Source: Actinomycetota bacterium
GTDB lineage: Bacteria > Actinomycetota > CADDZG01 > WHSQ01
Direction of reading: 5' to 3'
Length of the DNA stretch: 64,000 nt
Assembly: GCA_030446465.1 (NCBI GenBank)
Contig: JAUJNI010000002.1
Span: forward strand, 41,143-105,142
Position 1 is the stretch's first letter; every line of letters starts with the position of its first letter. Below are positions 7,135-63,909 of the stretch, one piece after another. The notes below the pieces were generated by a model, which did no database searches, had not been told where the DNA came from, and saw only the letters and a program-made list of their open reading frames with translations. Made by a program: the position numbers and the translations under genes.

Positions 7135-7208
7135 CCCCCTCCATGGGGGCCTGCACCTGTCCGTTCCTGCGACTTTTTCCGCAAAAACCCTCGAAATTCG
7201 TCGTTTCC

Positions 7209-7219
7209 TGCGTAAAGAC
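7209..7219 (+). repeat. 11-bp direct repeat, left copy, upstream of the DUF559 gene
   Basis: The 11 bases TGCGTAAAGAC recur exactly at 8231-8241, just after the DUF559 gene. The two copies bracket that gene. The right copy is also part of a 13-bp inverted repeat. Such a pair could be a target-site-like duplication or a shared regulatory word; the sequence cannot separate these. Confidence 0.5.
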
Positions 7220-7252
7220 TGAGCTAGAGCCCTCGGTGTCACAGTCCCCGAG

Positions 7253-8213
7253 TTGAATACCGGTATGGAGCCTTCCCTCTCGGCGGCCCCAGATCGCCTG
7301 TGCTCCCATCTTGCCCGCTCCCAACACGGAGTCGTCACTCGGGATCAGGCGCTCCAGCGAGGCCTTTCAGCGACGGCGATCAGGAGACGCGTCACGCGCG
7401 GCAGTTGGAATGAGTTTCTGCCGGGTGTGTACTGGGTGGCAGGGGTTCCGGAGTCCTGGGAGGGGCGGCTCTTCGGAGCGCTCAAGTGGGCAGGGGGTGA
7501 TGCGGTGGCCTCTCATCGCGCCGCTGCGGCGCTGTGGGAGTTCCCCGGCTTCGGCGGTGAGGTAGTTGAGATCACTTCTCCGCACCACCTCAGGTCGCCG
7601 GACGGCGAGGTGATCATCCATGCTTCGTCCACCTTTGCAAGGCACGATGTTACGAACTTAAGAGGAATGGCACTCACCTCTCCCGCCCGTACCCTTCTCG
7701 ATCTCGGAGCCGTCGCCAAGCCTCGTCAAGTCGAAGCTGCCCTATACGACGCGCTTCGTCGGCGGATTACGTCGTTGCCTCGAGTGAAATGGACCTTGCA
7801 AGTAGGCGGTGGCCCCGGTAGGCGGGGCCGGCGTTCTCAGAAGGTTGGTGGAGGAGATCTCGGTCCTCAGTGCACCTCCACAGAGCCTCCTCCAGATGGA
7901 GCTGATCCGGCTCTTGAGAAGGCGACGTATCCCCACGCCATGCGTGGAGTACAGAGTCGTGGACCGCGGCAAGCTTGTCGGGACGCTCGATCTAGCTTAT
8001 CCAGACATCAAGCTTGCCATCGAGGCCGATGGTTATGACTTTCACTCTAAAAGAGATGACTGGGAGCATGATCGCATTCGTCGCAACGCCCTCACGGCAC
8101 TTGGTTGGCTCGTGCTGCACGTCACTTGGCGTGGGCTGCGGTCGAATCCCGATCGCATCGTTGCCGACGTCAGACGAGCACGCCACCAGAGAGCTTCTTT
8201 ACGCACAGAGTGA
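7253..8213 (+). pseudogene. DUF559 (Vsr-like endonuclease) protein with AbiEi-like N-terminus, frameshifted
   Basis: The first half reads in one frame from TTG 7253 (or ATG 7265) to about 7825. It gives an AbiEi-type N-terminal winged helix (V-V-T-R-D-Q-A ... A-I-R-R-R-V-T-R-G) and the middle domain S-P-A-R-T-L-L-D-L. The second half reads in the +1 frame to a stop at 8211-8213. It gives the DUF559 nuclease-like domain: L-D-L-A-Y-P-D, A-I-E-A-D-G-Y, then D-R-I-R-R-N-A-L and G-W-L-V-L-H-V-T-W. The break falls at the G-P-G-R-R-G region, where one extra G in the G-run 7824-7827 would restore a full protein of about 320 residues. It may be a pseudogene or a sequencing error. The fold suggests a PD-(D/E)XK-type nuclease; its biological role is undefined. 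Confidence 0.75.
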
Positions 8214-8239
8214 CGCTTTCGAGCAGTCTGTGCGTAAAG
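8197..8239. promoter_or_regulatory. 13-bp perfect inverted repeat spanning the end of the DUF559 gene
   Basis: CTTTACGCACAGA (8197-8209) and its exact complement TCTGTGCGTAAAG (8227-8239) are separated by 17 bases that contain the DUF559 stop codon (8211-8213). It could be a transcript terminator (no T-tract follows), a protein-binding palindrome for the aldehyde dehydrogenase promoter region, or an element end. The right arm contains the 11-bp word that also occurs at 7209-7219. Confidence 0.55.
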
Positions 8240-8323
8240 ACGGTGTCCAACGGGCCCGGCAAGCTCAGCTTCGGCGGCCCGGATAGGCTGGCTGCAACCC
8301 ATACATACATTAGGAGGCCTGCA

Positions 8324-36360: not shown

Positions 36361-36387
36361 CGAAAGGGCGGTTGGGCCCGGTGCGTC

Positions 36388-36432
36388 CATTGGACGTCTT
36401 CCCACCGAAGCGGTGCGCAGATGTCCACCGGA
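36388..36432. repeat. 45-bp palindromic repeat, copy 2
   Basis: It has outer arms GGACGTCT (36392-36399) and AGATGTCC (36419-36426), and inner CACCG-AAG-CGGTG. It lies 72 bases from copy 1 in the same orientation, between convergent genes. Its ends match copy 3 exactly when copy 3 is reversed. Confidence 0.75.
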
Positions 36433-36453
36433 GGAGCGGTCGAGGGGAAACCG

Positions 36454-49891: not shown

Positions 49892-49898
49892 CCGCTCG

Positions 49899-49943
49899 TC
49901 CGGTGGACGTGTACCAACCGAACCGGTGCGCAGATGTCCAATG
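49899..49943. repeat. 45-bp palindromic repeat, copy 3
   Basis: Both ends (TCCGGTGGAC and GTCCAATG) match the reverse complement of copy 2 at 36388. The centre keeps the pairable core ACCG-AA-CCGGT and the outer arm AGATGTCC. It starts eight bases after the stop of the SH3-like gene. The exact length is conserved over 13 kb, which argues for a mobile or replicated repeat rather than a chance hairpin. Confidence 0.7.
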
Positions 49944-50056
49944 AACGATGAACGGAGGCCGCGACCAGGGCTTTTGACGCTCGTATGAGTTTGCCGCTGG
50001 TAGGATCGGGCAAGACCAAGACTTCTACTTGACCCTTTAGGGGGGACTCCCACTAG

Positions 50057-62348: not shown

Positions 62349-62389
62349 CCATGCTCGTTGGAGCTGCGGCCGGGCTAAGGTAGAGGCCT

Positions 62390-62470
62390 GCAGCGGGGGA
62401 GCTCCTCACGGGGCTGAGAGGCCGAAAGGCGACCCCTTGAACCTGATCGGGTTAACGCCCGCGGAGGGAG
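62390..62470 (+). promoter_or_regulatory. TPP (THI-box) riboswitch
   Basis: The leader contains GGGGCTGAGAG, a short GGCCGAAAGGC stem, ACCCCTTGAACCTGATCGGG and a closing GCCCGCGGAGGGAG, which are the conserved elements of the thiamine pyrophosphate riboswitch in the right order. It ends nine bases before the transporter ATG, and the GGAGGGAG serves as the ribosome binding site. High TPP should block translation of the transporter. Confidence 0.93.
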
Positions 62471-62478
62471 CGATTCAC

Positions 62479-63909
62479 ATGAGCAAGGTACTCGAACGCG
62501 TCGAAAGCGCGCCCGACTGGGGCATCGCACCGGTCCCACCACAGCATCGGCGGCTCTCGGGCTTCGACCTGGCAGTGCTGTGGGGGGATCTGGGCATAGG
62601 GGTGCTGGTACTGGTCACGGGCGCGCTGCTGGTGCCTGCTCTCGGGTTTTCCACCGCCATGGTCGCCATCGTGCTCGGATCGGTCATGGGCGTGGCGCTG
62701 CTTGCGCTCGGAGCCGTTGCGGGCGCCGACCATGGGGTCCCGACGATGGTCTTGTTTCGTCCTGTGCTCGGGATCCGCGGATCGTGGTTTCCGAGCGTCA
62801 TGAACGTCCTTCAAATGATTGGGTGGACGGCTGTAGAGCTGTGGGCCATGTCCTTTGTTGCAGACCTCGTCGCTAGACGGGCTTTTGGCTTCTCGGCTCG
62901 CTGGTTGTGGCTTGCCCTTGCCGCCGCCGTCTGCACCGGTCTCGCGCTGTGGGGACCGGTTGGAGTGACTCGAGTGTGGCTCAAACGCTTTGGTGCTTGG
63001 GCAGTGATCGGCATCTGCGTTGCGGTCACGGTGCTGGTCCTTGCGACGGATGGGATAACCGACGCGTTGCGAAGCTCGGGGGCCGGCGGCTTTCCCAGCT
63101 TTGGGCTTGCGCTCGATCTGGTCATCGCCATGCCGATCTCGTGGCTGCCCCTCGTTGCTGATTACAGCCGCTTTGCTCGACGTCCCCATGCCGCGGGGTG
63201 GGGGACTTTCACCGGCTACCTGGTGGCAAACGTCTGGCTGTACGCGCTCGGCGCGCTTCTTGTCCTCCAGACGCCGGGCACCACTCCGGATCCGGCCGGG
63301 ATAGCCGGCGGGCTACTCGCCGTTACAGGTGGTTCGATCGCAGGAGTCCTCTTCTTGTTCGGATTGCTGGTGGGTGAGACCGACGAGGCCTTCGCCGACA
63401 TGTATTCCGGCGCCGTCTCTCTTCAGAACATATGGCCGCGGGCCTCGCGCAGGGGCCTGACGCTCACCATCGCCGCCATAGCCACCGGCCTGGCGGCCTG
63501 GTTGACGATGGAACGTTACGAGAGCTTCCTGTTCTTGATCGGGTCCATCTTCATTCCGCTGTTCGGCATCCTCTGCGCCGATCATTTCTTCAACCGGCGT
63601 GGCCGCATCGATCTCGAGGCTCTCTACTCCAGCGGCGGGCGCTACTGGTTCACTGGGGGGATACGTCTGGCCGCGTTCCTACCCTGGCTGGCGGGGTTTG
63701 CCGTGTATCACTGGATCGCTCCGGTGGGGCCACCGTGGTGGACGGAGCTCATTGGAAACGCCTTCGGTGCACCGCTGTCCGCATCGCTGCCATGGTTGGG
63801 TGCATCGGTGCCGTCGTTCGTAGCGTCCTTCACGTTAGCGGTCGTTGGCCCTCGTCTATCATCCAGGAGTCCCACGCCCGAGAGAGGTGAAGATGAGAAT
63901 TCAGGCTAA
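62479..63909 (+). CDS. cytX: CytX-type NCS1 transporter for hydroxymethylpyrimidine
   Basis: The 476-residue protein has about twelve transmembrane helices and the NCS1/CytX pattern: L-W-G-D-L-G-I-G-V-L-V near residue 35, G-W-T-A-V-E-L-W, and L-P-L-V-A-D-Y-S-R-F-A. With the TPP riboswitch directly upstream, it most likely imports HMP, the pyrimidine precursor of thiamine. No thiamine biosynthesis gene is in the window. Its last 17 bases overlap the next gene. Confidence 0.9.
   Translation: MSKVLERVESAPDWGIAPVPPQHRRLSGFDLAVLWGDLGIGVLVLVTGALLVPALGFSTAMVAIVLGSVMGVALLALGAVAGADHGVPTMVLFRPVLGIRGSWFPSVMNVLQMIGWTAVELWAMSFVADLVARRAFGFSARWLWLALAAAVCTGLALWGPVGVTRVWLKRFGAWAVIGICVAVTVLVLATDGITDALRSSGAGGFPSFGLALDLVIAMPISWLPLVADYSRFARRPHAAGWGTFTGYLVANVWLYALGALLVLQTPGTTPDPAGIAGGLLAVTGGSIAGVLFLFGLLVGETDEAFADMYSGAVSLQNIWPRASRRGLTLTIAAIATGLAAWLTMERYESFLFLIGSIFIPLFGILCADHFFNRRGRIDLEALYSSGGRYWFTGGIRLAAFLPWLAGFAVYHWIAPVGPPWWTELIGNAFGAPLSASLPWLGASVPSFVASFTLAVVGPRLSSRSPTPERGEDENSG

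Follow-up and report, generated by a model that had tools for sequence, protein, structure and literature searches.

The window analysed here is a 64,000-nucleotide stretch of an Actinomycetota genome, in which a gene broken over two reading frames lies between two palindromic elements (Table 1). The N-terminal part is carried by an ORF at 7253-8038 (TTG start, with an ATG at 7265), which contains an AbiEi-type wHTH domain [Pfam AbiEi_4 (PF13338), E = 3.5e-08, 33.9 bits at a cut-off of 25]. The nuclease domain lies in a second ORF (7809-8213) and is recognized by both MTES_1575 (E = 1.5e-09, 38.2 bits, equal to the cut-off of 38.2) and DUF559 (E = 1.7e-05, 25.1 bits, cut-off 20.6). Alignment to the paralogue L007 follows frame 1 to nucleotide 7828 and frame 2 from nucleotide 7824, indicating that the gene is frameshifted at about this point, by a true mutation or by an assembly error. 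Its neighbours are an ABC1 kinase-like gene (PF03109) upstream and an aldehyde dehydrogenase gene (PF00171) downstream; the AbiEii toxin that belongs to the profile of an AbiE operon is not among these immediate neighbours. Elsewhere in the window a TPP riboswitch is found at 62385-62486 (RF00059, 62.3 bits).

Table 1. Features of the window discussed in the text.
Feature	Position	Strand	Basis or remark
Upstream element, decayed palindrome	7171..7219	.	Left arm GACTTTTTCCGCA, right arm TGCGTAAAGAC (7209-7219); bounds by eye
Gene, N-terminal part, AbiEi-type wHTH and middle domain	7253..7828	+	AbiEi_4 match; aligned to paralogue L007
Frameshift zone, reading frame +1	7824..7828	+	Alignment to paralogue L007
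Gene, C-terminal part, DUF559/MTES_1575 nuclease domain, other frame	7824..8213	+	Pfam
Downstream element, 45-bp palindrome over the stop codon	8196..8240	.	Perfect 14-bp arms; direct-repeat copy 8231-8241
Dispersed element, first of a doublet (72-bp period), family of the gene at about 416 kb of G000:C4	36313..36361	+	
Dispersed element, second of the doublet, same family	36385..36433	+	
Dispersed element, single, same family	49898..49946	+	

The preliminary description had the gene flanked by an 11-bp direct repeat and ending in a 13-bp inverted repeat. Both copies of the 11-mer TGCGTAAAGAC are present where it placed them, and the near-repeat TTCCTGCG does occur twice upstream. The right copy is held in a perfect palindrome around the stop codon, whose arms are 14 bp and not 13 (8196-8209 and 8227-8240, 17 nt apart, with the TGA at 8211-8213 inside). 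The frameshift had been missed, as had the appearance of the upstream 11-mer as one arm of a decayed palindrome of its own. This upstream palindrome was recognized by eye and by loose alignment, and its position agrees with that of the upstream elements of relatives.

Far from being common across the 2.76-Mb genome, the 11-mer has two exact matches in it, both at this locus (reversed-pattern control, 1). Taken alone, the direct repeat is weak evidence, because 10 of 500 shuffles gave a word of 11 common to both flanks, and 51 of 198 control ORFs attain the flank-to-flank score of 22. A pair so well within the control range could be one 11-mer and one hairpin fallen by chance near a pseudogene and unrelated to any wider pattern. 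We consider this improbable, since no shuffle of 200 reached the 14-bp stem (largest, 9), both exact 11-mers of the genome sit at the one locus, and the length of the element and its position at the stop codon match those of the family described below. The copy in the window is probably dead, because its gene is frameshifted, its upstream element is worn and the genome holds no further exact 11-mer. It reads as a decayed member of a wider gene-plus-site system, for which it is weak evidence by itself.

AbiEi-DUF559 proteins combine an AbiEi-type DNA-binding half with a Vsr/EDxHD-type nuclease half, and we know of no agreed role for their genes. The source genome (G000) has eight MTES_1575 and eight AbiEi_4 matches. 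Relatives of the window locus were sought in 61 genomes, of other genera than the source; the N-terminal part matched in 30 of the 61 (source genome included), with up to 22 AbiEi-DUF559 matches in one genome, and the C-terminal half of the window gene, used as the query, had no relative in the contigs of the genomes searched. Two contigs of the source genome (L158, G000:C1:1-4500; L159, G000:C2:1-4500) begin in DUF559 genes whose translations are near-identical by eye, and several contigs of relatives end near DUF559 genes, as though repeats had broken the assemblies. At two further source-genome loci (L160, G000:C4:173700-180000; L161, G000:C6:951000-957500) the AbiEi-DUF559 genes look broken, their matches being split over frames or short pieces.

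Inspection of the flanks of paralogues and homologues revealed many genes with a private repeat common to the upstream and downstream flank. A bracketing score of at least 28 is reached by 34 of 80 AbiEi-DUF559 genes and by 2 of 198 control ORFs (Mann-Whitney p = 7e-9), to be read with the facts that the idea arose from about 29 loci also among the 80 and that the thresholds were read off afterwards. Both of these control ORFs adjoin a DUF559 gene. At a score of 24 the counts are 39/80 and 23/198, and at 34 they are 30/80 and 2/198. The controls are the longest ORFs of the same loci and are unannotated. The genes were drawn from regions (80) that were chosen by eye and are mostly full-length genes, one (L162) being an element site; 97 ORFs became 83 on removal of duplicates, and 3 of these were dropped for short flanks. 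ORFs shorter than 250 aa or lacking an N-terminal alignment were left out of this count, and broken genes such as that of the window are thus excluded. Four flank pairs of the source genome score 128 (L157), 37 (L154), 34 (L156) and 22 (L155). Homologous genes without the repeats, which the preliminary description would have held against its proposal, do occur, as no pair at a score of at least 34 is seen in 53 of 108, and the window gene is itself broken.

The paired repeats are imperfect palindromes, mostly of 40-60 bp and longer at doublets. Over the 55 element pairs scoring at least 34, the centre of the downstream element lies at a median of +35 from the stop, with the stop codon covered in 29, and the upstream centre at a median of -110.5 relative to the start codon, with quartiles of -143 and -73. 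The main rival reading is that the upstream element is a self-repression operator of the AbiEi type and the downstream one a terminator, the two being alike by chance, with the nuclease employed elsewhere, for example in defence. The operator inverted repeats bound by AbiEi are described as lying at its own promoter (PMC3985639), and hairpins at gene ends are ordinary: a perfect 3' stem of at least 9 bp occurs in 18 of 198 control ORFs and in 17 of 82 family genes. Since this difference is just about twofold, some of the elements downstream of the gene may simply be terminators. A purely terminator-based account was set aside, as the family is hardly set apart from the controls by perfect 3' stems but is by common flanks. 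An operator with a terminator would leave the match between upstream and downstream flanks unexplained, and no flank pair was seen at the one true AbiE antitoxin gene inspected (Rhodococcus, L369; score 17). For these reasons, and others that arise from the dispersed copies, we regard this reading as unlikely.

Palindromes of the same kind are also dispersed through several genomes; in relatives they are present together with the gene-flanking ones, and for the window gene flanking copies only were found. The half-site of G052 (one contig, 4.78 Mb) occurs there 28 times forward and 28 times reverse at one mismatch or fewer (control 0/0). Among 150 genomes of its family, more than one match was otherwise found in G127 only (2/3), the holder of the closest full-length orthologue of the G052 protein (81%); G143 and G184 have one each, and no half-site of the G052 type occurs in G172, whose 81% fragment lies at a contig end. 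Across 27 distinct copies (24 from G052, 3 from G127) identity is 0.85-0.97 in 8-base bins of the unit and about 0.3 further out. All 22 of the G052 copies examined are intergenic by a GC3 heuristic, including the two that bracket the gene, with 10 between convergent, 8 between tandem and 4 between divergent neighbours. Without the bracketing two, the figures are 9, 8 and 3; by these heuristic gene calls, 9 of 20 non-bracketing copies thus lie where no promoter is expected, which argues against an operator. On either strand the 5' flanks of the G052 elements are rich in C (L134-L153; 58% C at -20 to -10), so that the elements sit inside larger C-rich or G-rich stretches.

A second one-contig genome, G038 (2.5 Mb), has 12/11 half-sites of its own (control 0/0) that are found in none of four other genomes. 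In its 13 distinct copies (L316-L334) the outer arm and the centre GTCGCTATAGCGAC stay constant and the 8-nt spacers vary. In 10 of the 13 the spacers pair incompletely, unlike those of simple terminators; the two gene-bracketing copies are perfect or nearly so. In the source genome, another AbiEi-DUF559 gene, at C4:416 kb, has an element of which 14 copies are found when up to 13/49 mismatches are allowed. They form six doublets with a 72-bp period, of which two flank that gene, and two single copies; one of the doublets and one of the singles are those of the window (Table 1). Dispersal in G052, G038 and the source genome is likewise left unexplained by an operator with a terminator. Elements from seven sources had no match in Rfam.

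In layout the dispersed palindromes resemble REPs and REPIN doublets, and they could be ordinary REPs of a RAYT (Y1 HUH) transposase to which the DUF559 gene is merely adjacent; G052, G127, G098 and G161 each have one or two Y1_Tnp matches. This we consider very improbable, as G038 and the source genome contain dispersed elements and no Y1_Tnp match, the Y1 match of G052 (at 4,552,110) falls in an interval with no listed element copy (4,255,455 to 4,620,131), and the sequence of the element follows the DUF559 protein. Y1_Tnp (PF01797) has no match in 8 of the 12 genomes tested (G000, G038, G006, G010, G016, G021, G078 and G113); a RAYT as driver, and membership of the REP/RAYT systems, were set aside with the transposase lacking there.

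The relation between element and protein was assessed over 1485 pairs of 55 genes. An element score of at least 40 is seen in 18 of 37 between-genome pairs with at least 60% protein identity, in 1 of 15 pairs at 50-60%, in 0 of 1414 below 50% and in none of the 19 same-genome pairs; Mantel rho is 0.21 (0/999 permutations). The other 19 of the 37 close pairs fall short of this score, and the sole same-genome pair above 60% protein identity has no common element (score 13), which speaks against any simple rule by which closely related proteins would have the same element. The sequence of an element is peculiar to its gene, and is alike only between close proteins. Recognition of the element by the encoded protein is strongly suggested.

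A cleaner test is provided by the family of G052, where the names of relatives point to Ilumatobacteraceae; 27 of the 28 genes scored are new relative to the 80-gene set. The G052 protein has a match in 83 of the 150 genomes. Of 30 loci returned, L271 (short flank) and L273 (no ORF, contig end) were left out, and 26 of the remaining 28 genes have a pair at a score of at least 42 [exceptions: L287 (23) and L289 (18)]. Of 38 other ORFs at these loci, one reaches 34 and none reaches 40. A second control set, from the loci of the 'left' neighbour of the G052 gene, reaches 34 in 2 of 26 cases, both being DUF559 genes, of G052 and G161. Named loci all score at least 43 (12 of 13 scored; L306 short) and are largely the same genes as in the G052-family sample.

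Eight orthologous genes (61-100% identity) have elements of 47-48 bp in 16 of 16 cases, a uniformity partly built in, as the element finder used for them and for G038 allowed 42-50 bp. Their outer arms are near AACGCGTGA, the inner parts are TGCGCA-like and the stretch between is variable. The cultured species Tsukamurella tyrosinosolvens has a DUF559 gene with a 42-bp element on both sides (score 69). At E 0.01 this element is found at five places in three records of the species, the bracketing ones included; a looser search (E up to 10) gives nine places in the three records and weak matches in 22 others. Carriage by plasmids or phages was considered and rejected: 15 of 72,556 plasmid records contain relatives of L010 and none of the 50,697 phage records does, and three plasmid matches inspected are one DUF559 gene and two true AbiE operons. 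With the Tsukamurella protein as the query, 15 plasmid records were returned, most matching the DUF559 part only.

The G052 gene is flanked by two neighbours, here called 'left' and 'right', both of which are seen in G127 and the left one in G161. Three of the 20 left orthologues (at least 61% identity) are accompanied by the bracketed gene. In G183, G098 and G114 the two neighbours are adjacent and the gene is absent; in the remaining 14 the right neighbour was not seen in the sequence stretch. The preliminary description had asked whether one copy of the repeat remains where the gene is absent. At this locus of distant relatives it does in two of the three genomes: a single intact element is present in G183, in the place of the downstream one and of the subtype found around its own gene elsewhere, and G098 has one decayed element; no element of this kind was found in G114. 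The G183 gene is at another place (L268), with neither neighbour in its stretch, so that the solo site is not simply a collapsed assembly of a bracketed gene, an assembly error being possible. The solo case consists of a single intact site and a single decayed one, both in fragmented assemblies, and either insertion or deletion would fit. AbiEi-DUF559 orthologues occupy two or more different loci.

Matching copies on either side of a gene, a solo copy where it is absent and orthologues at several loci might also be expected of a passive cassette, moved by the machinery of another element and leaving target-site duplications or footprints. This seems quite improbable, somewhat more so than chance at the window locus, because the unit is a 47-54-bp, gene-specific palindrome that tracks the protein, unlike a short random target duplication, and because it recurs many times without the gene. 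The earlier suggestion of an inserted cassette or a self-regulated unit holds in so far as many relatives are bracketed by matching palindromes and the upstream copy is roughly operator-like in length and layout; it misses palindromes of some 50 bp that are gene-specific in sequence and dispersed through genomes.

Structure prediction was applied to a named relative (81% identical to the G052 protein, and not the window's own), giving a model with pLDDT 87.7 and pTM 0.72. Residues 1-195 match AbiEi [PDB: 6y8q, Foldseek E = 6.7e-08, Z-score: 11.8, r.m.s.d.: 5.0 over 182] and residues 1-207 match Rv2827c (1zel). Residues from about 200 to 307 match I-Bth0305I, NGO0050 and Vsr, with Z = 13.6 and an r.m.s.d. 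of 2.2 over 96 for the I-Bth0305I catalytic domain and Z = 10.8 for Vsr (1cw0). E206, D238, D251, H252 and H256 are invariant in 11 of 11 aligned relatives. An I-Bth0305I/Vsr-fold catalytic domain with conserved E, D and H is accordingly found in the relatives of the window protein. AbiEi is reported to bind a perfect inverted repeat of 11 bp whose arms are 27 nt apart and which extends to 23-3-23 bp (PMC3985639), and I-Bth0305I to dimerize on nearly 60 bp (PMC3943268). By analogy, both halves of the protein would be predicted to recognize a long two-half site such as the observed element, and the resemblance of the upstream element to the AbiEi operator in length and two-half layout fits self-regulation.

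Paired bracketing of the genes, a gene-specific element, its dispersal in several genomes and a solo element at one gene-less locus are, we propose, best explained by a nuclease-driven spread of sites, the binding, cutting and movement that it involves being inferred. The AbiEi-like half would bind the element as a dimer on its two half-sites, as AbiEi does on the 23-3-23-bp operator, and the upstream copy could double as operator. The Vsr/EDxHD-like half would nick or cut at the element, and repair would copy the element into new intergenic places, occasionally together with the gene between two elements; deletion between two bracketing copies would leave a solo element. In its working this would be akin to REP/RAYT repeats or to a homing endonuclease gene, though built of unrelated parts. 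Any nuclease activity must then be weak, nicking, regulated or structure-dependent, because an active nuclease would cut the intact-looking bracketing copies. That the protein recognizes its own palindrome, that its nuclease drives the spread of the site and that the window copy is a decayed member of such a gene-plus-site system is, in our judgement, probable. Put forward more tentatively, at odds a little short of even, is the general claim that AbiEi-DUF559 proteins drive intragenomic mobile palindromes of an undescribed kind, each nuclease copying its own site of about 50 bp and at times the gene framed by it.

If this general claim holds, these systems would form an independent counterpart to REP/RAYT that is widespread in Actinomycetota. 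The many DUF559 genes per genome, each with a private palindrome, would be explained as well. A private long palindrome would provide each gene with a testable DNA target, and would point to more than one origin of REP-like repeats, among unrelated nucleases. Should movement be disproved, the function of a large uncharacterized family can still be tested directly through the pairing of site and protein. As a gene-site system it appears new, because no family tested, as represented in the open-access literature, accounts for both halves and the sites. A link between DUF559/AbiEi nucleases and palindromic repeats was not found in open-access titles and abstract openings, where absence is a weak argument.

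Four known systems invite comparison. The AbiE type IV toxin-antitoxin systems share the AbiEi fold, seen in the N-terminal 195 or so residues of the modelled relative, and an operator (23-3-23 bp; PMC3985639) similar to the element in length and two-half layout. Here, in contrast, a nuclease is fused, the window gene stands beside ABC1 kinase-like and aldehyde dehydrogenase genes rather than AbiEii, and in the family a downstream copy matches the upstream one and further copies are dispersed. Vsr and the DUF559 Vsr-like nucleases such as VsrA of Caulobacter (PMC12907096) have the fold and the DUF559 domain in common with these proteins, which differ from VsrA in the AbiEi half; the string 'palindrom' is absent from the main text of that report. 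The EDxHD homing endonuclease I-Bth0305I resembles them in its catalytic fold (Z = 13.6) and in its very long dimeric target of nearly 60 bp (PMC3943268), and the gene-less site at an orthologous locus may be a further likeness. It differs in that the AbiEi-DUF559 proteins have an AbiEi-like DNA-binding half and a palindromic site of which a seemingly intact copy stands on either side of the gene, and cutting by them is presumed. The REP/REPIN-RAYT (TnpA-REP) systems are similar in that palindromes flank a nuclease-type gene and are dispersed between genes as singlets and doublets (PMC3116915). The catalytic domain of RAYT is a Y1 HUH transposase, whereas that of AbiEi-DUF559 proteins is Vsr/EDxHD-like, and the elements described here occur in genomes without a Y1_Tnp match. 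They also differ from REPs in being about 45-60 bp long, with the downstream copy often over the stop codon, and the doublets of the source genome run in the same direction, whereas REPIN doublets are described as mostly inverted pairs (PMC3116915).
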